A program made the position numbers and the translations under genes. A DNA stretch of 64,000 nucleotides. Source: Laccaria trichodermophora. Lineage: Eukaryota > Basidiomycota > Agaricomycetes > Agaricales > Hydnangiaceae. Positions 2,639-60,053 of this stretch are shown here, piece after piece. Positions within the stretch are counted from its first letter, which is position 1. Each line of letters begins with the position of its first letter. Under the pieces are notes generated by a model. The model made no database searches, was not told the DNA's origin, and worked only from the letters and a program-made list of their open reading frames with translations. The stretch covers positions 124,001 to 188,000 of the forward strand of contig JACTVC010000012.1 of assembly GCA_018417955.1 (NCBI GenBank), in the 5' to 3' direction.

Positions 2639-2643
2639 CCACC
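2639..2643. repeat. Target site duplication, left (ccacc)
   Basis: ccacc directly precedes the Ty3 LTR and is repeated exactly at 14378-14382 after the other LTR, marking the insertion boundaries. Confidence 0.95.
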
Positions 2644-3181
2644 TGTAATAGGTGTTCCGTGAGTTAGCGAAACTGAGTGGGATTCTGATACCAACGACAA
2701 GTGAGCTGGCGGACGTGTAAACACCAATATTACAATGGTGTGCGATCAGCCGTAAGGCTTGGTCTAATCTCGCAAATACTAAGCGGAGATCGTTGACGCT
2801 ACGGATATCCGTTGCACGATCTCTGCACTTTCTCAGGAAATCCTCAAGAAAGCAGTAGATGGGAGAGTAAGTAAAAGTCAGTGTATAGCGACCGAACACC
2901 TCTGAGAGAGTATTCAGTGACCTTATACTAAACTCAAACACTTACTATACTTCTAGGAAGAATGCGATACGACGCTATTCAGACGCAGGGTATACGTAGT
3001 GGTGGTTGAAGAATAGAAAAAAGATGAGTTACATCATGTGACTAAAAGTATGTAATACGAGTTGAATCGTGTGCTTGCGTAAGCAAGTGCCAAAACATGT
3101 AGTAACGAAGATAAAGCGTCATAACGTACGTGCAGAAGTTCATGAAGTGGAAATTATATAGAATGCAGGACACTCGCCACA
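2644..3181 (-). repeat. 3' LTR of the Ty3 element
   Basis: 538 bp, plus-strand ends tgtaata...gccaca. It matches 13840-14377 except at three positions (gccgtaa/gccataa, cctcaag/cctcgag, tacgag/tacaag), each a CpG/CpA pair. Confidence 0.95.
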
Positions 3182-3193
3182 AAGCCCCCCTAA
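3182..3193 (-). other. Polypurine tract for plus-strand priming
   Basis: On the minus strand TTAGGGGGGGCTT lies directly against the 3' LTR. The TAG stop of the third ORF is part of this tract, so the ORF extends to the last possible codon. Similar G-runs occur before the TGTG ends at 41817 and 60228. Confidence 0.85.
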
Positions 3194-5718: not shown

Positions 5719-5997
5719 GATCGACTGCCACGGACGGATATCCGTCGATAGCTGCCGATCCCTCGAAGAAACGTAGGCAGGATGTCCTCGCCCGCAGTCC
5801 ACTCGAGGGGAAAGAAAGAAAAGAAAAAAAAAAACAAAAGAACAAGAAAAGATAAGTCGGTAATGTCCGAAACAAAGGAAGAGAAGTCAACCGATATAAC
5901 CGAAGCCATTAGAAAAATACAACCGATAATAAATATTGCCGAAACACGATGAGGGCCTTAAAGCAACAACGTCAGGCGCCCTCGGCCTGTAGATCCT

Positions 5998-13296: not shown

Positions 13297-13839
13297 AGTC
13301 GGTCTGGGACTGATAACTTCGGTATCCGTTTCAAGAGTAGATTCTCGCGACGTAGGCTTGCTCGACGTGGACGTTACGGGAGGTAAAGCGGTTACGGTGA
13401 CAGTCGAAGTCGTAGGCTTTGACGTTGAAGCGGTGAGACTGAACGAGGATAGAGGAGATGTAGGTTTCGTAGATTTTTGGGTAGGGGTAGGGGTAGGAAT
13501 CAAAGTCTTCTTACGATTCGCGTTTGACGCCTGTAGGCCTAGACGATTCGTAATAGACGTGTTGGTAGATGATGTTGGCGTCGGAACGCTGGTAGGTTTT
13601 GCAGGGGAAACTGATCTTGACGATTCCCTTGATCCGTGTGTGGTACGTGTAGATCGAGAGGATCGTGTAAAGGAATATGATGGTACTGAAGTACTCGACG
13701 CGCGATTCGTAATCGATTGGTCGGTGATGTGACTTGAGGTGTTTGTGAGGGACAAGCTATCCAGTACTTCCTCACCAGGCCTAGTCTTCTTGTTGTTATA
13801 GTCGGCCAGGTTGTCGGAGGTTCCCACAGTGTCCACCTT

Positions 13840-14377
13840 TGTAATAGGTGTTCCGTGAGTTAGCGAAACTGAGTGGGATTCTGATACCAACGACAAGTGA
13901 GCTGGCGGACGTGTAAACACCAATATTACAATGGTGTGCGATCAGCCATAAGGCTTGGTCTAATCTCGCAAATACTAAGCGGAGATCGTTGACGCTACGG
14001 ATATCCGTTGCACGATCTCTGCACTTTCTCAGGAAATCCTCGAGAAAGCAGTAGATGGGAGAGTAAGTAAAAGTCAGTGTATAGCGACCGAACACCTCTG
14101 AGAGAGTATTCAGTGACCTTATACTAAACTCAAACACTTACTATACTTCTAGGAAGAATGCGATACGACGCTATTCAGACGCAGGGTATACGTAGTGGTG
14201 GTTGAAGAATAGAAAAAAGATGAGTTACATCATGTGACTAAAAGTATGTAATACAAGTTGAATCGTGTGCTTGCGTAAGCAAGTGCCAAAACATGTAGTA
14301 ACGAAGATAAAGCGTCATAACGTACGTGCAGAAGTTCATGAAGTGGAAATTATATAGAATGCAGGACACTCGCCACA
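13840..14377 (-). repeat. 5' LTR of the Ty3 element
   Basis: Partner of 2644-3181 at a constant offset of 11,196 bp. It contains the promoter by position. The target duplication ccacc follows at 14378-14382. Confidence 0.95.
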
Positions 14378-17107: not shown

Positions 17108-17578
17108 TATCTGACATCAATTGAATTCCTCCCGCTACTCAGGTGGGTGACACTGTGCAAATTGGGTCGCCCACACCGCCTTGCACAGCCGTTCCTACGT
17201 TTTAAAAAGAGCGCTCTTGACCAGTCTAGAATTAACACTGCCCTTGATGCCCCGAGCACTGCAACGAAAACTGGTAATCGTCAGAGGTCATGAGACGGGA
17301 AAGGTTCTGTATCTTTTTCCTCAATTGATTTTTATTTTACTGACGGAATTCATGGCGTTCAATAGACAAGCTTGCTCTCCGCCTTTGCACATGGTCGTTT
17401 TCCCGGAGTGAGGTAGTATTCCTCTCCGTCGAGCCAATGTTGAATCATTTTCCACCAGCCACACGTTCCGAGTGTTTTTGAGAGTTTCATAGCGGATCGC
17501 GAAGTGAATGGCTACGATGTTGAGTTAGCACTGTGGGATACTGTGGCTGGAACACCAGATCTTGACCGTATCAGGCCA

Positions 17579-18913
17579 CATCAGGAAAACTCCAACCGTG
17601 TGGCTGGTCTGGCTCCAGACCAGCCAGACGCTTCCAGACCATCAGAATGTGAGTGGCGACATAATACCCTCCCGATGCCACAACGGTTTTTTGTCCCATA
17701 ATTTCATTCTGACTTCATAACAGCATTTGTGGGAGAGTAAAAAGATCTGGTGATAGGTAATCAGACACATCAGACCATTCATAAGTTTTCTTCTATGTCA
17801 ATTTTTACACAGTAGCGGGCAATAGAATAGTTGTTAGAAGAGTACTCGGATTAGACATGTACTAGTATCTACTAATAGGTAACGCTAACATGAAGTGAAT
17901 GGACATGACGGTATCCCTCGTTCAGTTTCGTGGAGGGGAGAGCACTCGTGCATTGTCATTTTGTCCGACATCGTCCATCGTCATGGTTTTCGTGTCGTTG
18001 TCATCGTCCACCACCGTTGTCGTCGTCCACCGTCGTTGTCATCATCCACCATCGTTGTCGTCGTCCACCGTCGTTATCGTTGTCCATCATCGCCACCACA
18101 TCGCGACATTATCATCCGTCCGTCTCCATCGTCATCGTTGTCATCACCAAATGTGGCAGAGGGCGAGGGGCAGTGGTTGGCGGGTGTTCCGGTGGCCGCT
18201 GGGTGGGTTGTGGCTGTTAGACAGGAGAAAGAGGGGGCTGGTGGAACTTACGACGTGATGTGCTCACCTGCACTACTGTTATGTCGTTGCTGTCTGGAGG
18301 CGTTGATGTGCCACGTCGTCTTCTCCATGCGTTGTCGACACGGCAGGCACTCACTTAGTTGGTACCGCTGGTGACGTGGCATTGGCACATTGTTGCTGCC
18401 ATGGTTGCTGTGTTCCGAGGTGGGTGTGGACAGTGGACGACGGGAATGGGCAGCAGTGGCGGCCGTAGGCGATGTGGAGAGGCAGCGACAGGGATCGTCG
18501 TGGAAGATGTGGTGTGCTGTGGCCGTATTGGCATTGTTGCTGAGCCTCCAGCGCGTGATGTGGCAGTTGATGTGTGGGCCTAAATGTCCTTTAGTTCATG
18601 GTGGGCGCTCATGATGCGAGGCGGCGGTCACGAAGGGTGGTGACAGTGCTGGGGATGGTGGTGGTGGTGGGAGGAGAGTGTTTGAATTTGGGTTTGGTTA
18701 CGAGAATCAAGGTGTCGGAGTTTCAACGGACTTGTACGAATTGAATGGTTTGTGTTCTGGTGAAGTTCAGATTCTGAAAGAATTCAAAAATCTGACTACT
18801 TCAAAATTTGTGATGAAAGAATGGGAAGAAAATATTTCTGACAAAAAACTTGCCACACCTGTCAGACGCATCAGACGCACCAGACCTTCCACACGCGAAG
18901 AGTTTTCCTGATG
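17579..18913. mobile_element. Non-autonomous DNA transposon (CATCAGG ends) in exon 3 of Rho copy 1
   Basis: Terminal inverted repeats begin CATCAGGAAAACTC at both ends and match at about 28 of 34 positions. Flanks are CA on both sides; copy 2 shows the empty site at about 21336-21342 (ggccactaaa). Just inside the left end is a perfect 11-bp hairpin (17602-17625, GGCTGGTCTGG and its complement). The interior has a GTCGTTGTCATCGTCCAC-type simple repeat (17960-18140) and no transposase. Confidence 0.85.
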
Positions 18914-19186
18914 CACTGAGTTATTCTGGCACACATGTCGTTCTCCTGTGCTTTTCGGTCGATTCCAAAGAATCATTTGATCGCGTCGAAGGACATGTAT
19001 GTCTTTGATGCAACCCATCAGGCTCCCCTACCTAATAATGTTGTTGTCAGTGGATCAAGGAATTACGACATTTTCTTCCTTACATACCCATTCTTCTCGT
19101 AGCAACGAAAACAGATCTGCATCACGACGCGCAAGTGATCAACAAGTTAAGTCGTTCAGGTCGACACCTCGTCACTACGGAAGAGG

Positions 19187-20269
19187 CAAGGGGGTTCCAG
19201 GATGTTGAAGCCAAAAGTGAGGTTGAATTTTCAAATAAGAGCCTGTCGACCCAGACTAACCCAACCCATGGGAACTAATTACCATATATGGAAGGTAATA
19301 TTGTGTCATAGTGCTGATGCGTCATGCTTGGCATCATAGTACATGCCTTGTCTTTCCACCTCCTCTTCGACCTACATCCTCCCTCAGCTGCAAGATCCGC
19401 ATGTCCAAGACTCAAATCGGTACTCGAGGCTGACGCACGCTAGGTGGTACTTTGATATGTGAGTCTTTCTGCTACCACCTTCAATTCACAATGCTTACTT
19501 CAACTGTTTCGCAGCCATGTTGCTTACACTTTATCACCTCCATCCCCGCCTCGATCTGTGCGACTGTAACAGGTTTATTGCAGTCACATTAGTATGTCCC
19601 GCTATCGCAAGCCTCCTTTTTTGGCTATAATGATTCTGACTGACAGTTGCCTCCACAGGTTCTGAGCCAGCAGGAGTTTGGTCAATTGCACAGGGTCTGT
19701 CTCAGTCTCAACCTCCACGCTCATGTTCTTAGGGTGTGGGATGGCTTCTGGACCACCAATTGTAGAGGATACACCATCTGCAAAGTTGTTCAATCAGGTA
19801 TGTTCATTTGTTTCCTCTAAATTACTGACTTACCTATGTGCTGTTCAGTTTCCTCGTTGACCAGTTCTGGAGCCTCATCAACTTCGCTTTCTCTACCATG
19901 TTCACTCGAGGTTTTGGGAAGGGTGATACATGATTTAAATTTTAAAATGGATCCTGGTGAGTTCTGAGATCTATTTCAATTTCAATTGCGCGAAATCTTA
20001 CCATTGTCAACTAGGACCTCTGATTCATTCACGGCTGCCAAGGTATCCTCCCCATCCTCATTCTCGGAACTGCTCTCCACAACTCATTTGTCATTCTAAG
20101 GCCTTTTCTTCCTTCAGAGCAATGCGCCTGGTTACTCAGTTGTAAAATAAGGCTTTACAGGGCAGATGAATGCCAAATAATTAATGAGGTCGAAAAGTTT
20201 TTTTATGACTGGTTGGCTGGACTAACTAACCAGCCTGGTATATCGGGTTCAAATCCCGAAACCCCCTTG
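19187..20269. mobile_element. Non-autonomous hAT-like transposon in Rho copy 1
   Basis: 1,083 bp with ends CAAGGGGGTT, flanked by a perfect 8-bp duplication ggaagagg (19179-19186 and 20270-20277). The intact paralogue has a single ggaagagg at the same place (21596-21603). An 8-bp duplication with CA(A)GGG ends is the hAT pattern. No transposase is visible. A stretch at about 19660-19930 (two spliceable open segments around a gtatgt...ttcag intron) could be captured host sequence. Confidence 0.9.
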
Positions 20270-21006
20270 GGAAGAGGTGCGTCCTCCCAGCTTCAAACAT
20301 CGGTTCGCCGATTATATTTTTATGTAGGGTAGCATGCTGGCTCAAAAAATCGGAGCAACTCATTATTGCGAGACCTCGGCGAAGCAGATACATGGAGTGC
20401 AAGACACATTTCATCGTGCTATGCAAGCTACGGTAAGGGAAGAAGAGACGGGATCAAGAGACGGGATCAAGTTGCGCTGTAATGTAGATGTGAAAGTGCA
20501 AAGGATAGCGAGTGTCTGCGTGCGTTGTGGTACTTGGAAGGAAGTATCGTTACGCTGCAACTTGAAGGAAATAGTCGATGAAAGACCCCATGAGAGTTGT
20601 TACAAAAATGTATGTCGAAAAGGATGAGTAGGTTAAAATGCTGCTGAACCAGGTTACTACACAGACAATTCGATGCGAAACTTGGGAAGAACCAGATTCC
20701 TGGTGATCCTCTTTGCGTTTGCGTTGGGATACATCCAAATAACTCACCCATTCCTCTTCAAAGATTGAACGTGACCGTGATCCCTCGACTTCAACGTTGA
20801 ACGTGGGCAGAGTGGCCGCCTTAGCAAATCGATAGTAAGTAGTGCATCTCACACTCCAATTGATTAATTATCTGACATCGATTGAATTCCTACGGAGGGT
20901 GATAGTGGGCCAGTGCAAACTAGGTCGCCGACACTGCCTTGCACAGCCTACTACGTACTAGTACTTCTTAAAGAGAGCTCTAGGAACAACGCTGCCATTG
21001 AGCTTG

Positions 21007-21805
21007 ATGCCCCGAGCACTGCGAAGAAAACTGGTAATCGTCGGAGATCATGAGACGGGAAAGGTTCTGTATCTTTTTCCTCAATTGATTTTTATTTTAC
21101 TGACGGAATTCATGGCATTCAACAGACAAGCTTGTTCACCGCCTTTGCACATGGTCGTTTTCCCCAAGTGAGGTAGTATTTCGTCTCGTCGAAACTATGT
21201 TGAATCGTTTTCCTTTAGCAATACGTTCCATGTATTTTTGAGGGTTTCGTAGCGGATCGCAAAGTGAACGGCTACGATGTTGAGTTGGCGCTGTGGGATA
21301 CCATGGCTGGAACACCAGATCTTGACCGTATCAGGCCACTAAATTACCCTGACGCACATGTCGTTATCCTGTGCTTTTCGGTCGATTCCAAAGAATCATT
21401 TGATGGCGTCGAAGAACATGTATGTTTTTGATGCAACCCATTCTCCATTATCTGATGATGATGTCAGTGGATCAAAGAATTACGACATTTTCTGCCTTCC
21501 ATACCCATTCTCCTCGTAGCAACGAAAACAGATCTGCGTCACGACACGCAGGTGGTCGACAAGTTAAGTCATTCAGGTCAACACCTCGTCACTACGGAAG
21601 AGGTGCGTATTCATAGCGTCTTTCCAACTTCAAAGATCAATCCACCGACATTTTTGTATAGGGGAGCATGTTGGCTCGAAAGATCGGAGCAATTCATTAT
21701 TGCGAGACCTCAGCGAAGCAGATACTTGGAGTCGAAGACACATTCCATCGCGCTATGCAGGCTATCGTAAGGGACGAAGCGACGGGTTGCTGCCTTGTAA
21801 TGTAA
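21007..21805 (+). CDS. Atypical Rho-family small GTPase, intact, five exons
   Basis: Exons 21007-21063, 21126-21167, 21219-21419, 21468-21602 and 21662-21805 join in phase 0 at every GT-AG junction (introns 62, 51, 48 and 59 nt) to give 192 residues, the normal Rho length. Motifs: P-loop VGDHETGKTS, switch I FPQQYVPCIFE, switch [18 protein letters not shown], base recognition ATKTDLR and CETSAKQ, and a C-terminal CaaX box CLVM, predicting prenylation and membrane attachment. It is atypical at three key places: His at the Gly12 position, Cys for the Mg-binding Thr of switch I, and AGTP where Rho proteins have AGQE, plus one extra residue before it. By analogy with known Gly12 and Gln61 changes it should hydrolyse GTP poorly, while the Cys may weaken Mg binding. 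Which Rho subfamily it belongs to is unclear. It is the downstream copy of a tandem pair. Confidence 0.9.
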
Positions 21806-21990
21806 ATATGTGAAAGCGTATACGTAAGGGAGTGTGAATGAGTGTTTCTGGTACTCGTAACCAAGTGTCGTTCCACTGTCCAGAAATAGTGGATCAAAGA
21901 GTAACGACCTCATGAGGGTTAATTAGGCAAAAGTGCTGCTGAACCGGTAAGTGAAGGCTATACAGATAGTCCAATGCAAAATATACCTAC

Positions 21991-32985: not shown

Positions 32986-34150
32986 GAGCGACGTCGAAGA
33001 CGATGGCCAAGGAGGGAGAGGTTGTGGTCAACTTCAAAGCCGGATCAAAAATCTCATTCAACAGGAAACTCCGACTCAAATGCCACTTCAACCAAACTTC
33101 AACCTTGCGTCCTCCCCATCCTTACAACATCATTAAAGAGTGGCTTGATCCCCCACCCCCACCCCCTGTGCTTCAGTCTACGTGGAACTGACCTATTTTA
33201 CAATTCATTAGACGGCAAAGTTCGATTACTTCCGAGTCAGATGGATCCAGAAGTGGAATTCACATACTCAAAGACCATAATTCTCAAAATGCGTTCTTAT
33301 AAGTGTATCATACACGGCGCATGATATCCTTTGACAAATCTCTCCCTTTTCTTTTCAGCAACACTCCGAAGCGTAACCAACGATGAAGTCTAAAGATCTA
33401 ATCGTTCATCGTCCTTGTATTGATCGAATTCACACACAGCAATCAAATCCCCCACCTTCGTCCTGACCCACCCCTCGGTGCAGGCGACCCACACCTGAGT
33501 ACGGCAACACGCATCGAACTCACATCCGACATTACTGAGCCCCTCTTCTGCGGCACCTCCCGAAACTCATGAATTAAGAAGAGGCTGAGGCCGATTCACC
33601 TACATCGCCTGCCGACAATCATAACGATGCATTCCTCGTCTTGCGAAATTTGGCATTAGGAATCATTGCGCTCCTTCGCTGACATATCCCCAGTATCTAC
33701 AACCTGCTGCAATCAGTTTGGACGACAGAGGGCAGTGTTCGTTCTCTTTCAATTTTTTCTCTGATGAGGAAATACAGGGTTTTGCATGAAATACAGTCTA
33801 TAAATACTCAATAGCGAGCATGCCGAGTAGAATGCACCAACAGAATTACTGCACAGAGTACAAACCAAGTACAAATGTAGCGGTGACAGCGAGCGACGTC
33901 CGTGGGAGAGCGACGTGCAGGGTCGCATATAAATAGCTGTCCATAACGACATCTTAAACTCATCCAGAGCTCTGCCTGTGCGATCTGTAAAGCGTAATCA
34001 TGTGAGTGGCCATTTTCTAAGAATGAAACGGTGGTATACGATTCGTAGCTCACGCCGCCAGTTGCTTCATATTTACATAGAATATATCAGGCACACCGAA
34101 CCAACGCCGAACAAAAATCCAGAATGATGGGTTACCTCATCTGCCCTTAT
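32986..34150. other. Region without a recognised gene, upstream of the secreted-protein locus
   Basis: No supported ORF or RNA gene. The inverted duplication that includes the first secreted-protein gene begins at about 33965. Confidence 0.4.
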
Positions 34151-34159
34151 TCCATTCCA

Positions 34160-34165
34160 TATAAA
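34160..34165 (+). promoter_or_regulatory. TATA box of secreted-protein gene 1
   Basis: TATAAA lies 98 bp before the ATG at 34258. Paralogues have TATA-like boxes at 35597 and 37748. Confidence 0.5.
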
Positions 34166-34257
34166 CAGAGGAGTCGTTGGCGGTCGAGGCTTCAGTGACT
34201 TTGGGGCCTTTTTTTTCCCTTTCAGCTGCCCTTTCGAACTTTCACTCCTCTACGAAG

Positions 34258-34729
34258 ATGTGCTCCTTCCTCACCATCTTCACCCTCCTGATCGGCGGTA
34301 CCATGCTCACGTCTGCGATGGTAGCCCGCGCTCCAACACCATCCGGCAATCCTTGTGTCTACACGTGCCCCCTCAAAGACCTCAACAACAAGGCATTGAC
34401 TGTTCATGTTGAAACCACCGACCCTATTTACTGTCAATATAATGGGGCCACCCACTCCTGCTCGTACAGCAAGGTTTGCTATACACGCAACCTCGCATCA
34501 TCTAGATCTTTACTAAAAATTTAACTAGACCACAGGATTGTTGACGGCCGACAACGACAGCGGGAAGTGCCCTTCCACAGCCGTCTGCTCGACATCCTCC
34601 CGTCGTCGTCGTGATCCTCTTCCTCAGTCCCCCCGTCGGCGAAACCCTGCCACACGCCAAGTTGATACATCTCCGTTGAAGGTTAGAAGTCAACTTGGGG
34701 CTGCTAAGCGGGCTAAGAGGTCGGTTTAG
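34258..34729 (+). CDS. Small secreted cysteine-rich protein 1
   Basis: Two exons (34258-34473 and 34529-34729; 55-nt GT-AG intron, phase 0) encode 138 residues. The start gives a clear signal peptide (MCSFLTIFTLLIGG...SAMVARA). The mature part has six Cys: CVYTCP, YCQYN, CSYSK, then GKCPS and AVCST, enough for three disulfides. The C-terminal third is basic with RRRR, RRR, KRAKR clusters that could be Kex2-type processing sites. The pattern CP..D...L...CxY...CxYxK TGxLTAD...CP resembles secreted proteins of unknown function common in mushrooms. It is presumably exported; its role is unknown. Its closest relative is the inverted copy at 37208-37667. Confidence 0.85.
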
Positions 34730-35282
34730 ATGGTGCCGAAATCCCATGGTGAGTTGTGCTATTCTCCCAGTCTCGCATATATTTTTTTTTGATAGAGGAC
34801 TAGATGTCGGGGCCCGGACATATGGATATTTACACCTACTTTTGCCAATCGCGGCTTCACACCACATCCCTGGATGCTTTCCTTTTATTACCCGGATTTT
34901 TTAACACTACCCGTCTATCTAGTTTTGACAAGAATAGAACTTCTTCGCCCTTGACTGTACCATTCATTTCTGTTATAGTACTAATGTCGTTTGTACTTAA
35001 CTAAATAGTTACTCGTTAGCTTAAGAGTCTGTAGTATAGAAAACGCGAAGCGCGTAACAGAGTTACTCAGACTGATAGTGGTGCGGCACGTAAAACCCAA
35101 CTTCCCCCCTGCTAGTGCTACACTTATAATTGCGCTCAAATTGGCGAGGACCTCAGGCCTTTCCATCGGCTTCGGCCGCGGGGGCTCGATGCCATATAAA
35201 TATTCCTTCAAGATCGGTGGCGACCAGAACTTGGCTGTCATGCGCTCGCTCCTTGTTATACAAACCACTTTCTCTGGCAGGC

Positions 35283-36317: not shown

Positions 36318-37207
36318 GGCATATCATCGGTAAGCTCTATATCCCGTCGCTGAATGATACGAGAGAGACTGATTTACGGTGCAGATTACGCCGGGCTCAG
36401 AGATATTCCTGCCCGACCTTGTCAGAAACACATCTTCGTTCGCTTACAATTCGTTCAGTTACAATTCGTTCATACAGTTCCGTTCAAAATCGTACCGTCG
36501 TTGAATAGGCCGTTTGTGTACCCTGTTCTGTCTCCATCTTTACAACCGCAGCCGCTCCGAAAAGTCGCTAAAAATCAGCCTGAGGCCTTTCAAAACAGGA
36601 GTGGGTCAGAGGTTTCGGTTGAACTTGTGTGCTAGTCACCGTGGAAATGATGGATGACAGCAGAATTATGTAAGTAGTTTGCGGAACCGACAACTGTATA
36701 TTCCTGTTTACTTCGCCAAACAAGTGTCTATTACTACTTCAAATTAGGCCAAATCGAGGCAAGGCTAATTAGAAGGATGAAGGATCCCGCGAACGTCGGC
36801 AAGCTGGCAACCATCAGAGCTTTGTTACTTTCTGGAACAAAATTGGACAAACGTGGAACCATTGAACAGACACAAAGGGTTGGTAATAATAGTCTACACC
36901 ATTCTACATGTGTTAACTAGACAAATGAATGGTACAGTCAAGGTCTTCTAAGGACGGAGAAGTCCTTGCATTGTTCAGTTCAAGAATGTAAAAATTAGAC
37001 GGGTAGTGTTAAAAAATCCGGGTGAAAAAAGGAAGGCATCCAAGGACGTGGAGTGAAGCCGCGATCGGCAAAAGCGGGTGCAGTGGGAAGTAACTAGTAG
37101 ATATGCATGGTATGTATATCGTTCGAGGGGACCCGACATCTAGTCCTCTATCAAACAAATGCGACACTGGAAGGGTAGTACAACTCACCGTAGGATTATG
37201 GCACCAT
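36318..37207. other. Interval between secreted-protein genes 2 and 3
   Basis: No supported gene. The inverted duplication's right arm begins at about 36923. Confidence 0.4.
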
Positions 37208-37667
37208 CTAAACCGACCTTTTAGCCCGCTTGGCAGACCCAAGTTGATTCCTGGTCTTCAAAGGAGCTGTATCAACTTGGCGTCCAGAGTTTCGCAGACG
37301 GGGTGATGAAGGAAGAGCATCACGACGACGGGAGGATGTCGAGCAGACGGCTTTGGAAGGGCACTTCCCACTGTCGTGGTCAGCCGTCAACAATCCTGTG
37401 GTCTAAACAAACTTTTAGTAAGGAATGACGATGCAAGTTGCGTGTATAACAAACCTTGCTATACGAGCAGTAGTGGACGATCGAATTATATTGACAGTAA
37501 AGAGGGTCGCTGGTTTCATCACGAAGGCCCAATGGCTTGTCGTTGAGGTCTTTGGAGGGGCACTTGTAGACACAAGGAGTGTTGGATGGCGTAGAACCGC
37601 GGGCTTCCAACGCAGACGTGAGCGTAAAACCAATCAGGAGGGTGAAGATGGTGAGTAAAGAGCGCAT
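37208..37667 (-). CDS. Small secreted cysteine-rich protein 3
   Basis: Exons 37667-37455 and 37402-37208 on the minus strand (52-nt intron, phase 0) encode 135 residues. The signal peptide is MRSLLTIFTLLIGFTLTSA. The mature Cys pattern is the same as gene 1 (CVYKCP, YCQYN, CSYSK, GKCPS, AVCST), and the basic tail ends SAKRAKRSV exactly as gene 1 does (AAKRAKRSV). It is the inverted paralogue of gene 1; both copies look intact. Confidence 0.85.
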
Positions 37668-37740
37668 CTTGTAAAGGAGGGAAGTTTGAAAGGCGGCAGA
37701 AAGGGAAAACAGCCTGGAGCAACCGGCAGCGACTGAACGG

Positions 37741-37748
37741 TTTATATA
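37741..37748 (-). promoter_or_regulatory. TATA box of secreted-protein gene 3
   Basis: TATATAAA on the minus strand, about 75 bp before the ATG, then ACCGTTCA as at gene 2. Confidence 0.55.
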
Positions 37749-37932
37749 AAAAAGGGCAGATCAGGTCCCCATCATTCTTGATATTTGTTCCGCACACGGT
37801 GCCTGATATAAATGATATTAAGCGACTGGCGGCGTCGCGCTTTAGCTAGGAATCGTATGCCGCCGTGCGTTTCATCCGTAAAAAATGGCCACTCATGATT
37901 ATGCTTTACAGACCGCACAGGCAGAAGCCTTT

Positions 37933-48228: not shown

Positions 48229-48898
48229 CTAAGGCCCACCATCCATTCCATCCGACACCTTAAGTACAGCTCCTGAACTCACACCCTTGGATTGAAGTTG
48301 AACAGCCTTTTTCTTGAGGCTGATCATCATGTCCAACCGTTCAAGCTGGTCCTCCGCATGAGAGCAGACCTGCAGCAAAAAGTCCCGAGCCCTCACCACT
48401 TCTTCGTATTCCCTATACAATACCTTATACGCCATTCTGGCGTATTCCAGAGGGTGAGTCACTGCTGGCAAATCCAGTGCAACCTCATCAAAAAAGGTCC
48501 GACGGAGATTCGAGGAGGGCGAGGATACAGGTACCCGCGTAGGACCATCAGAATCCCTGAGCGTCGCGGAAGTTTTATTGCTTTCGGAGTTTGCAATAGC
48601 GACCTTCAGGATGGCTTTTAGAAAGTTGTAAAAGGACGAAATGAGATACGTACATCCGTATCATTTCTCGCCCACTCCAGTCGCTCGTAGTTTTCCAACA
48701 TGGAATTGATGCCTAGGTAGATTGGTCAACGAAATCAACAGTCATATGTGAACACCTACCCTTTGTTGCGGCGAACGTCCGGGACATCATGTCCACAGAA
48801 GCATTCCCAGCCAAACGGACTATTGTTCTCCAGTCAGTTGACTAGTCAATAAACAAAAGGGTTGAACAGTGCGCACCAAGAGGGGACGTAGACGACAT
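48229..48898 (-). CDS. Small coiled-coil-like protein, unknown
   Basis: A minus-strand model: exons 48898-48877, 48819-48760, 48712-48650 and 48614-48229 join in one frame to about 176 residues (MSSTSPL...DGMDGGP). The first three introns have consensus ends, but the last is only 35 nt, so details may be wrong. The C-terminal half is helical and charged (EYEEVVRARDFLLQVCSHAEDQLERLD), likely a coiled coil. Similar tails occur, as I recall, in mushroom proteins with Zn2Cys6-like clusters such as the one at 58713, so this may be a truncated relative. Its start is 58 bp from the first palindrome. Confidence 0.5.
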
Positions 48899-49139
48899 TT
48901 TATTGCTGAAGACGATTCGGAGGGTGGACAATGGAGTACTTTGTTCAAGACAATTGACTGGTGGCTACCACTTTTATGATTAATCTATGACAACTGTCCA
49001 AGAGGCAATGTGTATACTGCCACAGGTTTTATGAAAGGCATCTCATTAGGATTGCCCATCTATTTCATTCAATTTATCACTAGAATCTTTCATAAGATAT
49101 AGGCAAGGATAATGAGATATCATGAGGATATTTCATTAA

Positions 49140-50370
49140 GCTCTTTGGCCCTTTCATTGCCATTTCATAGACTTTTCATTAGGATATTTCATTAGGCTCC
49201 TTCGCTTTTTCATTGCCATTTCTTAGAATTTTCATTAGGATATTTCATTAGGCTCCTTCGCTTTTTCATTACCATTTCTTAGAATTTTCATTAGGATATT
49301 TCATTAGTCTCCTTGACTTTTTCATTACCATTTCTTATAATTTTCATTAGGATATTTCATTATGCTCCTTTGCTTTTTCATTACCATTTCTTAGAATTTT
49401 CATTAGGATATTTCATTAGACACCTTCGCTTTTTCATTACCATTTCTTATAATTTTCATTAGGATATTTCATTATGCTCCTTTGCTTTTTCATTACCATT
49501 TCTTAGAATTTTCATTAGGATATTTCATTAGACACCTTCGCTTTTTCATTACCATTTCTTAGAATTTTCATTAGGATATTTCATTAGGCTCCTTCGCTTT
49601 TTCATTACCATTTCTTAGAATTTTCATTAGGATATTTCATTAGACACCTTCGCTTTTTCATTACCATTTCTTAGAATTTTCATTAGGATATTTCATTAGA
49701 CTCCTTCGCTTTTTCATTACCATTTCTTAGAATTTTCATTAGGATATTTCATTAGACTCCTTCGCTTTTTCATTACCATTTCTTAGAATTTTCATTAGGA
49801 TATTTCATTAGCCTCCTTCGCTTTTTCATTACCATTTCTTAGAATTTTCATTAGGATATTTCATTAGACACCTTCGCTTTTTCATTACCATTTCTTATAA
49901 TTTTCATTAGGATATTTCATTAGACACCTTCCCTTTTTCATTACCATTTCATTAGGATATTTCATTAGACTCCTTCGCTTTTTCATTACCATTTCTCATA
50001 AGGATATTTCATTAGGTATTTGGCCCTTTCATTACCATTTCTTAAATTTTTCATTGGGATATTTCATTCAGCTCCTTGACCCTTTCATTACCATTTCATT
50101 GAATTTTTTCATTAGAATATTTCATTATGTTCCTTGACCCTTTCATTACCATTTCTTACAGTTCTCAGTAGGATATTTCATTAGGCTCCTTGGCGCTTTC
50201 ATTAGATTTTCTTAGAATTTTCATTGGGATATTTCATTCAGCTCCTTGACTCTTTCATTACCATTTCATGGAATTCTCATTAGAATATTTCATTAGGCTT
50301 CTTGGCGCTTTCATTAGGATATTTCATTGAGCACCTTGATGATTTCATTACTTCTCATTAGGCTCCCTGG
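49140..50370. repeat. 56-bp tandem repeat, left arm of foldback 1
   Basis: Unit TTTTTCATTACCATTTCTTA, GAATTTTCATTAGGATATTT, CATTAGACTCCTTCGC; about 15 near-perfect copies then diverged ones. Mirrored at 52800-54040. Confidence 0.9.
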
Positions 50371-52799
50371 CACTTTCATTACCAAAAATAGATAATGATG
50401 ATGATATGTATCACATGGGTTGTTGGGAGGGTGATCACATGACCAATTTCCTAAAATGGTCAAAAACGAAAGTTGTAGCCCTACACTGTAGCTTCCTGAA
50501 CCTGTTTGAATTATGTTGTGAAGTGCTCCCATTGTGAAGATATGATGTAAAAGATTCTTCCAAGTGCTGTGTTTTTTTTTGTTTTTTGCATTTTTCTCCA
50601 TGAAAACAAAACCAAATAACATGATTCCAACACATTTAGAAAGCTAAATGAAAGGGCAACAAATATTGTATTGTGGGAAAAATGACCAAAAAAGGAAGGT
50701 GCATTCCCTGAAAGAGCAATTGACACTGACAGACTACAACAGTCAGATATAGACTACCAGGTTTGCTGATAGACTACAAAAAGTTGGACATAGGCCTCAA
50801 AAGTCGGACTTAGACTACAAAAGCTTGGACTTAGACTACAAAGTTAGGGTTAGGTTAAAAGGTTATCCACACTGAAAACTTTTGTAGTCTGCGCTTTTTC
50901 ATTAGAAAATTTTGTAGTGTCCGCTTTTTTAGACTACAAAAGTTTGTAGTGTGTGCCTGTTTATTAGAAAAGTTTATAGTGTCTGCTTTTTAGACCACAA
51001 AGTTTGTAGTGTTCACTTTTGTATTAGAAAAGTTTGTAGTGTCCACTTTTTAGACTGCAAAAGTTTGTATTGTCTGCTTTTTGAGGCTACAAAAATTTGT
51101 GGTTGACATATAGTTTATAGTGTCCTTGACTCTGTATAGGTTATGGGGATGAGGTTAAAGAATTGACATGATTTTACATATTGCCATTGCTGCAGCATTG
51201 ATTTTTGACATCATGTACAAGTTGTCTTTCATGTCAAGAAAGGCTATTCTATGCCTTCCTATTGAATGCTCTGTCCTATTTCAAAGTCATAGTTCTAGGT
51301 TCATGGGGATATGGCTTAAGGATGGACATGACTTTACATATTGATTGCTATTGCCACATCATCAGCTTTTCACATCAGTTGTCTTTCATGTCAAGAAAGG
51401 CTATTCTATGCCTTCCTATTGAATGCTCTGTCCTATTTCAAAGTCATAGTTCTAGGTTCATGGGGATATAGTTTGAAGGATTAAATAACTTTACCTATTG
51501 CTATGGCCACATCATTAACTTTTGACATCATACCCAAGTTGCCTTTCACATCAGGACAGGCTACTCTCTGATTTCACATTGATAGTTGCTGGTCTGTCTG
51601 CTTTGACATTGATAGCTACTAGCCCATCCCAAACATAGCCAACTTTGATATCAGCTCTTTGAGGGCTATAGGATGATGGGCTGATTGTTCCCTGGAGGTG
51701 TCCTTAAGTCAGGTCATGATGTAAGTTGAGAATGTATTGAGACAGAACAGTGGATATTAATATGAATGGCTTCCTCTGGCTTGAAAACCAACTTGGGCAT
51801 GATGTGAAAAGCTGATGATGTGGCAATAGCAATCAATATGTAAAGTCATGTCCATCCTTAAGCCATATCCCCATGAACCTAGAACTATGACTTTGAAATA
51901 GGACAGAGCATTCAATAGGAAGGCATAGAATAGCCTTTCTTGACATGAAAGACAACTTGTACATGATGTCAAAAATCAATGCTGCAGCAATGGCAATATG
52001 TAAAATCATGTCAATTCTTTAACCTCATCCCCATAACCTATACAGAGTCAAGGACACTATAAACTATATGTCAACCACAAATTTTTGTAGCCTCAAAAAG
52101 CAGACAATACAAACTTTTGCAGTCTAAAAAGTGGACACTACAAACTTTTCTAATACAAAAGTGAACACTACAAACTTTGTGGTCTAAAAAGCAGACACTA
52201 TAAACTTTTCTAATAAACAGGCACACACTACAAACTTTTGTAGTCTAAAAAAGCGGACACTACAAAATTTTCTAATGAAAAAGCGCAGACTACAAAAGTT
52301 TTCAGTGTGGATAACCTTTTAACCTAACCCTAACTTTGTAGTCTAAGTCCAAGCTTTTGTAGTCTAAGTCCGACTTTTGAGGCCTATGTCCAACTTTTTG
52401 TAGTCTATCAGCAAACCTGGTAGTCTATATCTGACTGTTGTAGTCTGTCAGTGTCAATTGCTCTTTCAGGGAATGCACCTTCCTTTTTTGGTCATTTTTC
52501 CCACAATACAATATTTGTTGCCCTTTCATTTAGCTTTCTAAATGTGTTGGAATCATGTTATTTGGTTTTGTTTTCATGGAGAAAAATGCAAAAAACAAAA
52601 AAAACACAGCACTTGGAAGAATCTTTTACATCATATCTTCACAATGGGAGCACTTCACAACATAATTCAAACAGGTTCAGGAAGCTACAGTGTAGGGCTA
52701 CAACTTTCGTTTTTGACCATTTTAGGAAATTGGTCATGTGATCACCCTCCCAACAACCCATGTGATACATATCATCATCATTATCTATTTTTGGTAATG

Positions 52800-54040
52800 A
52801 AAGTGCCAGGGAGCCTAATGAGAAGTAATGAAATCATCAAGGTGCTCAATGAAATATCCTAATGAAAGCGCCAAGAAGCCTAATGAAATATTCTAATGAG
52901 AATTCCATGAAATGGTAATGAAAGAGTCAAGGAGCTGAATGAAATATCCCAATGAAAATTCTAAGAAAATCTAATGAAAGCGCCAAGGAGCCTAATGAAA
53001 TATCCTACTGAGAACTGTAAGAAATGGTAATGAAAGGGTCAAGGAACATAATGAAATATTCTAATGAAAAAATTCAATGAAATGGTAATGAAAGGGTCAA
53101 GGAGCTGAATGAAATATCCCAATGAAAAATTTAAGAAATGGTAATGAAAGGGCCAAATACCTAATGAAATATCCTTATGAGAAATGGTAATGAAAAAGCG
53201 AAGGAGTCTAATGAAATATCCTAATGAAATGGTAATGAAAAAGGGAAGGTGTCTAATGAAATATCCTAATGAAAATTATAAGAAATGGTAATGAAAAAGC
53301 GAAGGTGTCTAATGAAATATCCTAATGAAAATTCTAAGAAATGGTAATGAAAAAGCGAAGGAGGCTAATGAAATATCCTAATGAAAATTCTAAGAAATGG
53401 TAATGAAAAAGCGAAGGAGTCTAATGAAATATCCTAATGAAAATTCTAAGAAATGGTAATGAAAAAGCGAAGGAGTCTAATGAAATATCCTAATGAAAAT
53501 TCTAAGAAATGGTAATGAAAAAGCGAAGGTGTCTAATGAAATATCCTAATGAAAATTCTAAGAAATGGTAATGAAAAAGCGAAGGAGCCTAATGAAATAT
53601 CCTAATGAAAATTCTAAGAAATGGTAATGAAAAAGCGAAGGTGTCTAATGAAATATCCTAATGAAAATTCTAAGAAATGGTAATGAAAAAGCAAAGGAGC
53701 ATAATGAAATATCCTAATGAAAATTATAAGAAATGGTAATGAAAAAGCGAAGGTGTCTAATGAAATATCCTAATGAAAATTCTAAGAAATGGTAATGAAA
53801 AAGCAAAGGAGCATAATGAAATATCCTAATGAAAATTATAAGAAATGGTAATGAAAAAGTCAAGGAGACTAATGAAATATCCTAATGAAAATTCTAAGAA
53901 ATGGTAATGAAAAAGCGAAGGAGCCTAATGAAATATCCTAATGAAAATTCTAAGAAATGGCAATGAAAAAGCGAAGGAGCCTAATGAAATATCCTAATGA
54001 AAAGTCTATGAAATGGCAATGAAAGGGCCAAAGAGCTTAA
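52800..54040. repeat. 56-bp tandem repeat, right arm of foldback 1
   Basis: Reverse complement of the left-arm array, copy for copy, including its sequence variants. Confidence 0.9.
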
Positions 54041-54419
54041 TGAAATATCCTCATGATATCTCATTATCCTTGCCTATATCTTATGAAAGATTCTAGTGAT
54101 AAATTGAATGAAATAGATGGGCAATCCTAATGAGATGCCTTTCATAAAACCTGTGGCAGTATACACATTGCCTCTTGGACAGTTGTCATAGATTAATCAT
54201 AAATAGTGGTAGCCACTAGTGGACAATTTGCACTAGTATCTACCACTTTTTATGATAAAATACAGTCAAGTGCCTGCACAACTTTTTGGTAAATGGCACT
54301 GTGGTCTTATGAAATGAGAAACATGGGGGAAATCTAATGAAACATGTTTCATTTTTGGCCCAGACCATTTCATATATATCTCATTGTTTCCCTAGCAATA
54401 TTTCTTTGCCATTTCTTTC

Positions 54420-54960
54420 CCATTTCATTGGCTGACTGGCTATATTTCTTTTCCATTTCATTGGTTGCCTGGCTATATCTTTTTTCTATTTCATTGTTTC
54501 CCTAGCAATATTTCTTTGCAATTTCTTTCCCATTTCATTGGCTGCCTAGCCATATTTCTTTCCCATTTCATTCATATTTCTTTTCCATTTCATTGTTTCC
54601 CTAGCAATATTTCATTGCCATTTCATTCCTATTTCATTGGCTGCCTAGCCATATTTCATTCCCATTTCATTCATATTTCATTGCCATTTCATTGACTCCC
54701 TAGCAATATTTCTTTGCCATTTCTTTCCCATTTCATTGGCTGCCTAGCCATATTTCTTTCCCATTTCATTCACATTTCTTTTCCATTTCATTGTTTCCCT
54801 AGTAATATTTCTTTGCCATTTCTTTCCCATTTCATTGGCTGCCTAGCCATATTTCTTTCCCATTTCATTCATATTTCTTTTCCATTTCATTGTTTCCCCA
54901 GCAATATTTCTTTGCCATTTCTTTCCCATTTCATTGGCTGCCTGGCTATATTTCTTTCCC
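54420..54960. repeat. Outer tandem repeat, left arm of foldback 2
   Basis: Units of about 100 bp built from CATTTCATTGGCTGCCTAGC, CATATTTCTTTCCCATTTCA and TTGTTTCCCTAGCAATATTT. Mirrored at about 57600-58340. Confidence 0.8.
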
Positions 54961-55439
54961 TTCTTGTCAGGGTCCATCCAATGGGTCATCAGGAGGGTGG
55001 TCACATGACCAATTTCCTAAAATAGTCAAAATACAAAATTAATAGCCCTGAATTGTAGCTTTCAGAATCTGTTTGAATTATGTTCTAAAGTGCTCTCATT
55101 GTGGAGATATGAGGCAAATGAATTTTCACAGCGCCGTCTTTTTTCAACCTTTTTGTCTTTTTCTCCAGGAAAACAACACCAAACAATATAATTTTAACAT
55201 ATTTAGAAAGCTAAGAAAAGGGGCTACAATTATCATATTATAGAAAAATTGACTCAAAAAGGAAGGTGCATAGCCTAAAAGGGACACACACACCAGTAGA
55301 CTACAAAAGTCAGACCTAGACTAGAAATTTTACCAATAGATTACAAAAGTCAGACATAGAATACAAAAATGAGTAATGCACTACAAAAGACTACAAACAG
55401 CTGGACATAGACTACAAAGTTTACTAATGGGCTATGACA

Positions 55440-56170
55440 GACTTCAAGAGTTGGACATACACTACAAAATCCGCTTTTCTCATTACAAAAGTTTTAGTGT
55501 CTGCTTTTTTCATTACAGCAGTTTGTAGTGTCCGCTTTTTTTATTACAACCGTTTGTAGTGTCCACTCTTTTCATTACAACAGTTTCTAGTGTCCACTCT
55601 TTTCATTACAACAGTTTCTAGTGTCCAATTTTTTTATTGCAACAGTTTCTAGTGTCCGCTTTTTTCATTACAACAGCTTGTAGTGTCTGCTTTTTTTATT
55701 CCAACAGTTCCTAATGTTCGCTTTTTTTATTACAACAGTTTCTAGTGTCTGCTTTTTTAGACTACAACAGTTTACAATATCCACTTTTTAAGACTACTAA
55801 GCTTGTAGTCTCAGTTTGTAGTGTCCACTTTTTTTATTACAACAGTTTATAGTGTCCGCTTTTTCATTACAACAGTTTGTAGTGTCCGCTTTTTTATTAC
55901 AACAGTTTGTAGTGTCCAATTTTTTTATTGCAACAGTTTCCAGTGTTCGTTTTTTTTATTACAACAGTTTGTAGTGTCCAATTTTTTTATTGCAACAGTT
56001 TGTAGTGTCCGCTTTTTTCATTACAACAGTTTGTAGTGTCTGCTTTTTTAGACTACAACAGTTTCTAGTGTCTGTTTTTTTAGATTATGACAGTTTGTAG
56101 TCTTCGCTTTTTTGGACTACAACAGTTTACAATATCCACTCTTTAAGACTACTACGTTTGTAGTCTGCTT
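55440..56170. repeat. Inner tandem repeat of foldback 2, left arm
   Basis: About 30-bp unit CATTACAACAGTTTGTAGTG then TCCGCTTTTTT, roughly 20 copies. The same motif occurs in element 1 at 50880-51080. Confidence 0.8.
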
Positions 56171-58712
56171 TTCTGACATTTAGTTTGTAGTAGGTATGGG
56201 TTTATGACATGTGAGATGAATTGACTCTGCCAGTCAGGCCCAACTTGTTGTCTTTCACATCAGTGGAGCCCGTCTCTCTTTTCAGCTGACCAGCCACTAT
56301 CCCATCTCTCTGGACTCAGTCAAACATCTATTGATATCAGTAGCTACTGTCCTATAATGAGTGTCTCTCATTGGTCTTTTCTGTCAAGTCAAATTATGAT
56401 AAGGTTTCACTGTCCAACCATTCATCCTAGCCAATCTTCACTGAAAGCCATTCAAGAGTACTAGGAGTGAATGATGAAAGGTTGTCTATTCCTATTATGT
56501 TCTTAGTCTACTCAGGTGAATACAAGCTGGAATCTGGTGAATCTTTTCCAGGTTGACCATGAGTAGAGCTGTTGTTCTTGAAAACACAGTGCAGGCTCCA
56601 CTGGTATGAAAGCCAACAGTTGGGCATGGCTGGCAAAAGTCAACTCATCTCACATGTCATAAACCCATACCCACAAACTAAATTAGAAAAGCAGACTACA
56701 AGCTTAGTAGTCTTAAAAAGTGGATATTGTAAACTGTTGTAGTCTAAAAAAGCGGACACTAGAAACTGTTGTAATAAAAAAAGTGAACATTAGAAACTGT
56801 TGGAATAAAAAAAGCAGACACTACAAGCTGTTGTAATGAAAAAAGCGGACACTAGAAACTGTTGTAATAAAAAAAGTGAACATTAGAAACTGTTGGAATA
56901 AAAAAAGCAGACACTACAAGCTGTTGTAATGAAAAAAGCGGACACTAGAAACTGTTGCAATAAAAAAATTGGACACTAGAAACTGTTGTAATGAAAAGAG
57001 TGGACACTACAAACGGTTGTAATAAAAAAAGCGGACACTACAAACTGCTGTAATGAAAAAAGCAGACACTAAAACTTTTGTAATGAGAAAAGCGGATTTT
57101 GTAGTGTATGTCCAACTCTTGAAGTCTGTCATAGCCCATTAGTAAACTTTGTAGTCTATGTCCAGCTGTTTGTAGTCTTTTGTAGTGCATTACTCATTTT
57201 TGTATTCTATGTCTGACTTTTGTAATCTATTGGTAAAATTTCTAGTCTAGGTCTGACTTTTGTAGTCTACTGGTGTGTGTGTCCCTTTTAGGCTATGCAC
57301 CTTCCTTTTTGAGTCAATTTTTCTATAATATGATAATTGTAGCCCCTTTTCTTAGCTTTCTAAATATGTTAAAATTATATTGTTTGGTGTTGTTTTCCTG
57401 GAGAAAAAGACAAAAAGGTTGAAAAAAGACGGCGCTGTGAAAATTCATTTGCCTCATATCTCCACAATGAGAGCACTTTAGAACATAATTCAAACAGATT
57501 CTGAAAGCTACAATTCAGGGCTATTAATTTTGTATTTTGACTATTTTAGGAAATTGGTCATGTGACCACCCTCCTGATGACCCATTGGATGGACCCTGAC
57601 AAGAAGGGAAAGAAATATAGCCAGGCAGCCAATGAAATGGGAAAGAAATGGCAAAGAAATATTGCTGGGGAAACAATGAAATGGAAAAGAAATATGAATG
57701 AAATGGGAAAGAAATATGGCTAGGCAGCCAATGAAATGGGAAAGAAATGGCAAAGAAATATTACTAGGGAAACAATGAAATGGAAAAGAAATGTGAATGA
57801 AATGGGAAAGAAATATGGCTAGGCAGCCAATGAAATGGGAAAGAAATGGCAAAGAAATATTGCTAGGGAGTCAATGAAATGGCAATGAAATATGAATGAA
57901 ATGGGAATGAAATATGGCTAGGCAGCCAATGAAATAGGAATGAAATGGCAATGAAATATTGCTAGGGAAACAATGAAATGGAAAAGAAATATGAATGAAA
58001 TGGGAAAGAAATATGGCTAGGCAGCCAATGAAATGGGAAAGAAATGGCAAAGAAATATTGCTAGGGAGTCAATGAAATGGCAATGAAATATGAATGAAAT
58101 GGGAATGAAATATGGCTAGGCAGCCAATGAAATAGGAATGAAATGGCAATGAAATATTGCTAGGGAAACAATGAAATGGAAAAGAAATATGAATGAAATG
58201 GGAAAGAAATATGGCTAGGCAGCCAATGAAATGGGAAAGAAATTGCAAAGAAATATTGCTAGGGAAACAATGAAATAGAAAAAAGATATAGCCAGGCAAC
58301 CAATGAAATGGAAAAGAAATATAGCCAGTCAGCCAATGAAATGGGAAAGAAATGGCAAAGAAATATTGCTAGGGAAACAATGAGATATATATGAAATGGT
58401 CTGGGCCAAAAATGAAACATGTTTCATTAGATTTCCCCCATGTTTCTCATTTCATAAGACCACAGTGCCATTTACCAAAAAGTTGTGCAGGCACTTGACT
58501 GTATTTTATCATAAAAGTGGTAGCTACCACTCCAATTTGGATGGTGGACAATGGAGTAATCGAGATGCGATCCTCCAGATTCGGCCGAAATTCATTGATG
58601 TCCGAAAATGGAAATGTTGACATAGAATATTTCCACCCCCACCACCTCTCTCTTCTTTCCCATCACCCATCCACTCCGTTATCTATCCACCACGTTAGCG
58701 TCGACGGTCATT

Positions 58713-60053
58713 ATGTCCACCCCACTCTCCATCTTCAACATCCCCTCCGATCTCACCAAGAAGCTTCCCACCCGTGAAAAAATCAACGAGATTTACCCGC
58801 GGATTCCCTCACTCATTGAATTGGCCCGCACTTGGTACAGGGAATCATATGAAGGTGCGAACGAGCGGACAAGGGCAGCTCGGGAGGATTCCCTACGAAA
58901 GGTTGTGGTAAGTGTATTTTACTATCTAACATTACATGCAACTCAGAGAAAAATGTAGGGTTGGTACCTACGTTGCGCGCAAGTCCTGCAACACGATCCT
59001 GACTTTTCAGTAACGCCCGAGATGGAGCGGATTACCAACGAGGTCCTTGTAACGGAGCAGGGGGATTTTAATTGGGAAGTTCTCGAGGAGCCATCGCCCG
59101 AGCAGGAGCAAGAGGAGGAAGTTGAGGAGGATGACTTCAGTGATCTATTAGGCGGCTGGGGAGTGAACGCGGATGGGCCAGCGGCCGCAGAGAAAAGCAA
59201 ACAGAAGGAGGTTGTGGAGGAAGTTCCGAAAAAGCGGAGTAGAGGGCACAAGCGTAAGGCGGATGCAGGGGATGGAGGAGACATGGAGGCTGAGGTTGCA
59301 GAAGTACCAGGGCCGAAGGAGCAGAGGAAGAAGGCGAAGGTGCAGGGAGAGAACAAGGATGTCGAGATGGACGACCCCGATTACGACTTTGGGACAATGG
59401 GAGTTACGGCCACTGAACCCACCCCCCGCCATCGCACTCCTTGCAAGCAGTGCGAGATCGCCAACTTGGATTGCGTTGTCGCAATAGGTCTCAAAGGCAA
59501 CGCATGCGTCAAGTGCCGTTCAAGGAAGATCGGCTGTAGCTTTGTCAACACCCCCGGTGCGTCTGGCAATCGACTTACCTCCAATCCGATGCCCAAAAAG
59601 ACGACGTCAAAAAAACCCCGTGAACTGACTCCCCCCATCGTCCTCGTCACTGCTCTGCCGAAGCAAAGTGCGAAGCCAGCGGGCAAAGAAATCGAGGCCA
59701 AAGATGCGCGCCCTCGTCCTCGCGCCACCAAACCACCCGCGAAGACTGAGGCTGTCACCCAGAGTGGGGGCTCTCGACCACCCCCCGCCAAGGACGATGC
59801 CCGCGGTCTCATTCCTCCAGAGAAGACAACGGTATATGCGAATTCGCGCTACACGTGTGAAACCGAAGGGCTGATCGGGACTTCTCGACGAAGGCGTGAG
59901 TGCGAGATAGCGGCGGAGAAGATCCGGGGTACGCGAGAGAGAGAAAGTAATGTGGTGCCGCAAGGCGTCACCACGTTGAGATTATCCTGTGACCCAGGAA
60001 CTGGAGCGCGGTCACCCGGCGCAGGACTCTTGTATCCCGGAGGGGAGGCATAA
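58713..60053 (+). CDS. Protein with mid-sequence Zn2Cys6-like cluster
   Basis: Exons 58713-58907 and 58959-60053 (51-nt GT-AG intron, phase 0) encode about 429 residues (MSTPLSIFNIPSDLTKKL...). The N-terminal third is helical (IPSLIELARTWYRESYEGAN), then an acidic stretch and a Lys/Arg-rich stretch. A cluster CKQCEIANLDC, 10 residues, CVKCRSRKIGC fits the CX2CX6C...CX2CX6C spacing of fungal binuclear zinc clusters, but sits near residue 210 rather than at the N-terminus. The C-terminal part is Pro/Lys/Arg-rich and ends abruptly 41 bp before an LTR, so the 3' end may be truncated. Family role is probably DNA binding; many mushroom paralogues have no known function. Confidence 0.65.

Follow-up and report, generated by a model that had tools for sequence, protein, structure and literature searches.

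Paired palindromes in Laccaria trichodermophora as probable KDZ foldback transposons with unlike tips

How did two palindromes of several kilobases come to lie almost end to end, and how have their arms stayed so alike? These questions are raised by a 64,000-nucleotide stretch of the Laccaria trichodermophora genome (assembly GCA_018417955.1, contig JACTVC010000012.1, positions 124,001 to 188,000, forward strand), hereafter the window, which lies on contig C4 of the 59.0 Mb, 77-contig genome that was searched. We conclude, with a probability of roughly 0.85, that the palindromes, here called elements 1 and 2, are non-autonomous foldback DNA transposons of the KDZ (Kyakuja-Dileera-Zisupton) superfamily. 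We also lean, by a smaller measure, towards an account of why each is a near-perfect palindrome and yet strictly polar, in which the arms are continually exchanged while about 20 bp of identity as an L or an R tip is kept because products with symmetric tips are immobile.

Two insertions in one nine-base target

The ends of both elements were set by comparison with other copies in the genome, and give the following layout.

48949-48955, plus strand: left 7-bp target duplication of element 1, GACAATT
48956-54221, minus strand: element 1, a 5,266-bp foldback of subfamily A, with its R tip at the low end and its L tip at the high end
48956-48981, plus strand: R-type tip of element 1, GACTGGTGGCTACCACTTTTATGATT
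49120-50316, plus strand: outer array of about 56-bp units, low-end arm of element 1 (mirror 52860-54056)
50415-50880, plus strand: conserved block, low-end arm of element 1 (mirror about 52297-52761)
50881-51084, plus strand: inner repeat, low-end arm of element 1 (mirror 52095-52296)
51442-51736, no strand assigned: non-palindromic centre of element 1, about 295 bp, whose orientation relative to the tips varies among copies
54196-54221, minus strand: L-type tip of element 1, CACTAGTGGCTACCACTATTTATGAT
54222-54230, plus strand: common target GACAATTTG, holding the right duplication of element 1 (54222-54228) and the left duplication of element 2 (54224-54230)
54231-58532, plus strand: element 2, a 4,302-bp foldback of subfamily B, with its L tip at the low end and its R tip at the high end
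54231-54256, plus strand: L-type tip of element 2, CACTAGTATCTACCACTTTTTATGAT
54475-54960, plus strand: outer array of about 99-bp units, low-end arm of element 2 (the other arm's array is longer, 57606-58383)
54981-55469, plus strand: conserved block, low-end arm of element 2 (mirror about 57097-57585)
55470-56128, plus strand: inner repeat array of 31-bp units, low-end arm of element 2 (other arm 56731-57096)
56324-56552, no strand assigned: non-palindromic centre of element 2, about 229 bp
58507-58532, minus strand: R-type tip of element 2, GAGTGGTAGCTACCACTTTTATGATA
58533-58539, plus strand: right 7-bp target duplication of element 2, CAATTTG

The first-pass annotation of this DNA had placed the palindromes 11 bp apart between imperfect 9-bp flanking repeats. 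With the bounds above, the spacer is 9 bp. Element 1 is flanked on both sides by GACAATT and element 2 on both sides by CAATTTG, and the two inner duplications lie within the same nine bases, offset by two. What had looked like imperfect repeats are thus two perfect 7-bp duplications overlapping within one 9-bp target.

That target belongs to a dispersed repeat (about 48726-48955 and 58533-58900 in the window), the right flank of which has eight copies of at least 98% identity, the window copy included. All seven of the other close copies that were fetched are free of a palindrome, both flanks being contiguous; the uninterrupted junction string TTCAAGACAATTTGGATGG is exact in six, and in L100, the remaining copy, the alignment over the junction has three gap positions. 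Because perfect duplications overlap in one target that is empty at seven paralogous sites, elements 1 and 2 are independent insertions at a single 9-bp spot, in opposite orientation. 

In each element a short centre is enclosed by very long inverted repeats that are themselves internally repetitive, the architecture of the foldback class. The conserved middle block, the inner repeats and the differing outer arrays (56-bp against 99-bp units) are as first described. The arms had been said to mirror each other almost base for base. This is true of element 1, in which the first 2,420 bp of the two arms show four differences (at positions 1, 5 and 17, all in the tip, and a one-base gap at 1617), and less so of element 2, where identity is 98.2% in aligned columns outside the tip, with 14 gaps totalling 516 bp, the outer arrays of its two arms differing in length. 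Repeat searches bore out both palindromes. They hold no recognisable genes, and none of nine open reading frames (ORFs) compared with Pfam scored above a curated cut-off. The single Rfam match, to MIR172, scored 29.3 bits where the cut-off is 70 (E 0.005) and is taken as a chance product of the hairpin; no tRNA genes were found in the window.

A dispersed family and its KDZ relatives

A genome search with the conserved block gave 40 scored matches from 728 first-look candidates, many of them in mirrored pairs. Tip patterns, allowing at most three mismatches, matched 126 L and 255 R places, and the reversed control patterns matched none for either tip. Further copies with the same tips therefore exist, as the first-pass annotation had anticipated in calling the palindromes foldback elements of one family. 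From each pattern 100 matches were listed, and nine listed L matches that read GACTGG, which is R-like, were removed before pairing. The remaining 91 L and 100 R tips form at least 54 outward-facing pairs, 49 of them L/R, two LL and three RR; 83 of the 191 tips stayed unpaired, at least partly because the tips used were 100 listed matches per pattern. The 46 pairs under 9 kb sum to at least 190 kb.

All of the 54 pairs but one (C76:30960-37210) were examined for target duplications, making 53, and eight one-tip loci (L021, L025-L028, L046, L047 and L051) were excluded from the count. A 7-bp duplication flanks 44 of 48 two-tip elements, exactly in 41 and with one mismatch in three (by batch, 27 plus 1 of 30, 1 of 1, and 13 plus 2 of 17), and the match in the exact cases never extends beyond 7 bp. 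No strong target motif was seen among 28 duplications. Duplications at dispersed sites are the mark of a mobile foldback. The four two-tip elements that lack one comprise a pair with swapped duplications, a mixed-subfamily element and one unexplained case; the mixed element (C14:447608-467132) has tips from two subfamilies, which were probably paired in error, and the 48 include it as an element without a duplication.

The swapped pair, L040 and L041 (C9:72928-76668 and C9:78489-82229), are identical 3,741-bp foldbacks, with no differences, standing 1.8 kb apart, with their 7-bp duplications exchanged between the two copies. From this arrangement it is likely that recombination between the elements inverted the intervening DNA; it could also be an assembly fold. 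Another element, L012/L013 (C23:3504848-3521174), spans 16.3 kb with A-type tips, an exact duplication and 2.85-kb arms that are 99.9% identical; about 10.6 kb lies between its arms, with further repeat arrays.

Long inverted repeats are a classic assembly error, and it had been asked whether the palindromes are assembly or missed-adapter chimeras, which the pair on C9 could indeed be. Across the family, 49 of the 54 pairs have unlike tips, exact duplications stand at many sites and the paralogous target sites are empty. We regard a chimeric origin as extremely improbable, and the palindromes as real, complete transposon insertions that are very unlikely to be an artefact.

What moves them is indicated by four elements of 10.9 to 22.5 kb that combine matching tips and exact 7-bp duplications with KDZ transposase sequence.

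C3:744725-755617: KDZ element, A-type tips, exact 7-bp duplication
C23:706990-719940: KDZ element, A-type tips, exact 7-bp duplication
C23:2753993-2765064: KDZ element, B-type tips, exact 7-bp duplication
C1:3695051-3717510: KDZ element of 22.5 kb, B-type tips, exact 7-bp duplication

KDZ transposase thus lies inside full-length elements with the same termini as the foldbacks, and over 34 bases the C1 element has exactly the tips of the B family. In the C3 element, Pfam comparison gives KDZ at E 3.6e-40 and CxC2 at E 1.5e-40 (PF18758 and PF18803); the best named match of the KDZ protein is from Laccaria amethystina, at 62%. The transposase domains found between the tips are KDZ with CxC2, not the P-type transposase with THAP that defines the P superfamily; a scan of 16 ORFs from KDZ elements gave no THAP or P-element match at E 0.01. 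The C-terminal end of the transposase points toward the R tip. Among the tips listed, an R tip lies 0.8-3.0 kb downstream of 6 of the 17 best transposase C-terminus matches and an L tip 8.5-18.4 kb upstream of five, four of which are R-tip loci, and the reverse layout occurs at none of the 17. Ten have no tip among the matches listed, which means little because there were 100 of these per pattern.

The KDZ elements have long arms of tandem arrays of their own. In the two read whole (L010/L011 and L014/L015) the arrays have a 56-bp period, as in element 1, and the arms of the B-type KDZ element have units of about 44 bp; KDZ-element arms are only 76-79% alike. To judge from these comparisons, the foldbacks share both tips and outer arrays with the KDZ elements. 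Matches to the Tet_JBP dioxygenase number 76 in the genome, one of them (C3:742843-743286) 1.4 kb outside the left tip of the C3 element; as none of the 76 falls inside the four KDZ elements, TET/JBP was rejected as cargo.

The first-pass annotation had taken its 9-bp flanking repeats to fit foldback or Mutator-type (MULE) transposition. The foldback shape invites the Mutator reading, since most foldbacks seem to be Mutator members (PMC4079207), with exceptions such as Galileo (PMC4079207; PMC3573991). A duplication of exactly 7 bp in 41 of 48 elements, with no longer match, and the KDZ and CxC2 domains of tip-matched elements leave a Mutator origin with very little probability, and we treat it as ruled out.

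Unlike tips on arms kept alike

The tips take two forms, L, beginning CACTAG, and R, beginning GA[C/G]TGG and one base shorter, so that element ends read 5'-CACTAG...CCAGTC-3' or ...CCACTC-3', with long terminal inverted repeats (TIRs). In the 27 two-tip elements compared, the L and R tips differ over their first 26 bp by one to four mismatches and a one-base gap, and the rest of the arm shows 91-100% identity in aligned columns, gaps apart. Within each subfamily the R tip shows no variation over its first 26 bp (30 of 30 elements), and 28 of 30 L tips are of two standard forms. A palindrome would be renewed if, at each transposition, one half were copied over its full length by a hairpin (snap-back) mechanism, and this might seem suited to element 1, with only four differences in 2,420 positions. 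Such copying would, however, give identical tips, and it is contradicted by the unlike tips of all 27 elements and by two LL elements there that lack duplications; we hold it to be improbable.

None of five palindromes with two tips of the same kind has a target duplication, against 44 of 48 two-tip elements (Fisher p = 4e-5), or 41 of 48 if only exact duplications are counted (p = 3e-4). This difference suggests that tip polarity is needed for mobility. It also fits same-tip palindromes being merely young recombinants between two elements, which would also account for the five missing duplications. The four same-tip palindromes read whole have inverted arms, those of L092 only about 250 bp long. 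In L043 (LL; C8:306512-310723), the two halves go on mirroring each other for some 140 bp beyond the tips, in flanking array DNA, and the element adjoins an 80-bp piece of R tip; it is possibly a fossil of arm copying past the tip. We infer that arm exchange or copying occasionally takes in the tip, and that the products may no longer move.

The alternative put to us by the first-pass annotation, that such arms are either recent or homogenised, appears to be true on both counts from comparisons of arms, blocks, centres and lengths. Arm distances could be compared in 21 of 32 elements, the other 11 being without a long enough block match in both arms. For 39 of the 42 arms, no arm of another element is closer than the partner arm, and for 27 of them the partner is strictly the closest; in L043 and L048 the partner arms are 0 apart and 1.6-2% from any other element compared. 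Outer-arm lengths were examined in the 22 elements for which both arms have a placed block (L041 was omitted as a duplicate of L040). They range from 243 to 3,086 bp and agree to within 1 bp in eight elements, a number that no shuffle out of 10,000 attained (shuffle mean 0.8).

The centres add to this picture. Probes of 281 and 231 bp show 92-100% identity between copies within a subfamily, and the orientation relative to the tips is 12 against 4 in B and 3 against 4 in A. The window elements served as references, scored plus, and the count omits L012_13 (two matches), L022 and L024 (56-bp matches) and two LL elements. Even close relatives differ, element 1 and L016 having opposite centres with a block difference of 0.2%. 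Crossing over between an element's two arms would flip its centre in this way, and the arms appear, from these patterns, to be exchanged or copied within elements.

Clonal spread from an already symmetric master, with arm identity reflecting youth only, is one alternative. Many copies are nearly identical, and several blocks are at distance 0 from another element's. Yet L043 and L048 each have differences of their own that both arms carry, the two arm lengths of an element vary together, and centres stand in either orientation to the tips even between close relatives, and we think it unlikely that clonal spread alone is the explanation.

We therefore favour continual arm exchange, and propose the following model. 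A KDZ transposase made elsewhere would bind the polar pair of L and R tips and transpose the element by a cut-and-paste mechanism in which the target cuts are staggered by 7 bp. The arms could pair between moves, at replication or break repair, copying or exchanging sequence, which would keep them alike and invert the centre. Conversion that reached a tip would yield an LL or RR element, which would be immobile, and the tips would remain unlike for this reason.

The arms also differ from their surroundings in composition. Foldback CpG observed/expected averages 0.18 (29 elements, range 0.05-0.52), against 0.81 in the flanks (0.35-1.27), and in the two KDZ elements read whole the arms are depleted (0.09-0.28) and the interior is not (0.71-0.93). 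A history of methylation or selection for CpG-poor arms are possible causes. A methylated past would be compatible with inverted repeats selected by the host as a source of double-stranded RNA to silence KDZ elements, as would the tips and array type that the foldbacks share with those elements. Dozens of dispersed copies with duplications resemble transposon spread, not a domesticated locus, and host selection seems to us a poor prospect.

Several observations weigh against the KDZ assignment or against arm exchange. In the tip-matched elements the KDZ reading frames are split into separate ORFs, some with stops. A search of the two fully read KDZ elements with the foldback core, represented by the block, inner repeat and centre of elements 1 and 2, gave no hits, and C1:3695051-3717510, read at its ends only, may hold nested insertions. 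The two-tip B element at C1:1763097-1767219 has no matching duplication. Three of the 42 arms are nearer to another element than to their partner, and arm lengths are unequal in 14 of 22 elements, so the arms also drift apart. The same-tip sample is five, four read whole and C56:1743256-1749153 at its ends only. Finally, the family has TIRs and departs from the CA..TG termini of Kyakuja, discussed below.

Known systems and other features of the window

A close parallel is Galileo of Drosophila, a foldback-like element with long, internally repetitive TIRs and 7-bp duplications (PMC3573991). Its TIRs are 98-100% identical within a copy, TIR exchange has been proposed, it is linked to inversions, and chimeric copies with non-matching 7-bp flanks occur (PMC3573991). 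Galileo differs in its P-superfamily transposase, and we found no recurrent left/right tip difference described in the available text (PMC3573991).

Kyakuja elements of Laccaria share the KDZ transposase and the 7-bp duplication, and the left end of our family also starts with CA; the two Kyakuja families known from Laccaria are described with 5'-CA..TG-3' ends and no TIRs, and the available portion of that report was not found to mention foldback derivatives (PMC12730594). Zisupton and Dileera duplications are 8 bp (PMC12730594). The family would thus be KDZ by its transposase sequence and Kyakuja-like by its duplication, while failing the published description of Kyakuja termini. KDZ1-KDZ3 of Cryptococcus neoformans are likewise KDZ elements, of 9-11 kb, that have been shown to move (PMC12810828), but have TIRs of 139-241 bp, a CxC1 domain and 8-bp or 4-8-bp duplications, and no foldback form was found in the accessible part of their description (PMC12810828).

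Drosophila Foldback (FB) and Tetris, and nematode Tm1, are non-autonomous and have long inverted repeats, with internal tandem arrays in Tetris (PMC4079207, PMC4022104 for FB and Tetris). Tetris is tentatively assigned to Mutator, has 8-10 bp duplications, and no autonomous partner was found for it (PMC4079207, PMC4022104). KDZ tip motifs of Marasmius oreades are said to stand in a supplementary figure (PMC8290104). The words foldback and palindrome are absent from the main text of a Laccaria bicolor survey (PMC3411680), and we found no KDZ foldback described in the literature on KDZ, Laccaria and fungal foldbacks within our scope, which takes in few subscription-only papers. The KDZ link, the strict tip polarity of near-perfect palindromes and the evidence of arm exchange thus look new.

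The enzyme that moves a foldback may remain unidentified, as for Tetris (PMC4079207); here the tips, the duplication length and the large partners point to KDZ, a group of transposases whose mechanism has been little studied. The family offers a natural experiment on the survival of long palindromes, with arm exchange, centre flips, same-tip products without duplications and an inversion-like pair. If our proposal is true, tip polarity would be both a signal required by the KDZ transposase and a natural brake on palindrome perfection.

Elsewhere in the window, one gene has its named relatives among mushrooms, which belong to the Agaricales, the best being from Hebeloma cylindrosporum at 57%. 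A retrotransposon at 2639-14377 contains reverse transcriptase, RNase H and a chromodomain integrase, and is Ty3/Gypsy-like by this domain set. Its terminal direct repeats of 545 bp (2639-3181 and 13833-14377) are 99.1% identical, so it is probably young. Further repeats, inverted (77%) and direct, lie at 33971-34917 / 36996-37925 and 17108-21900.

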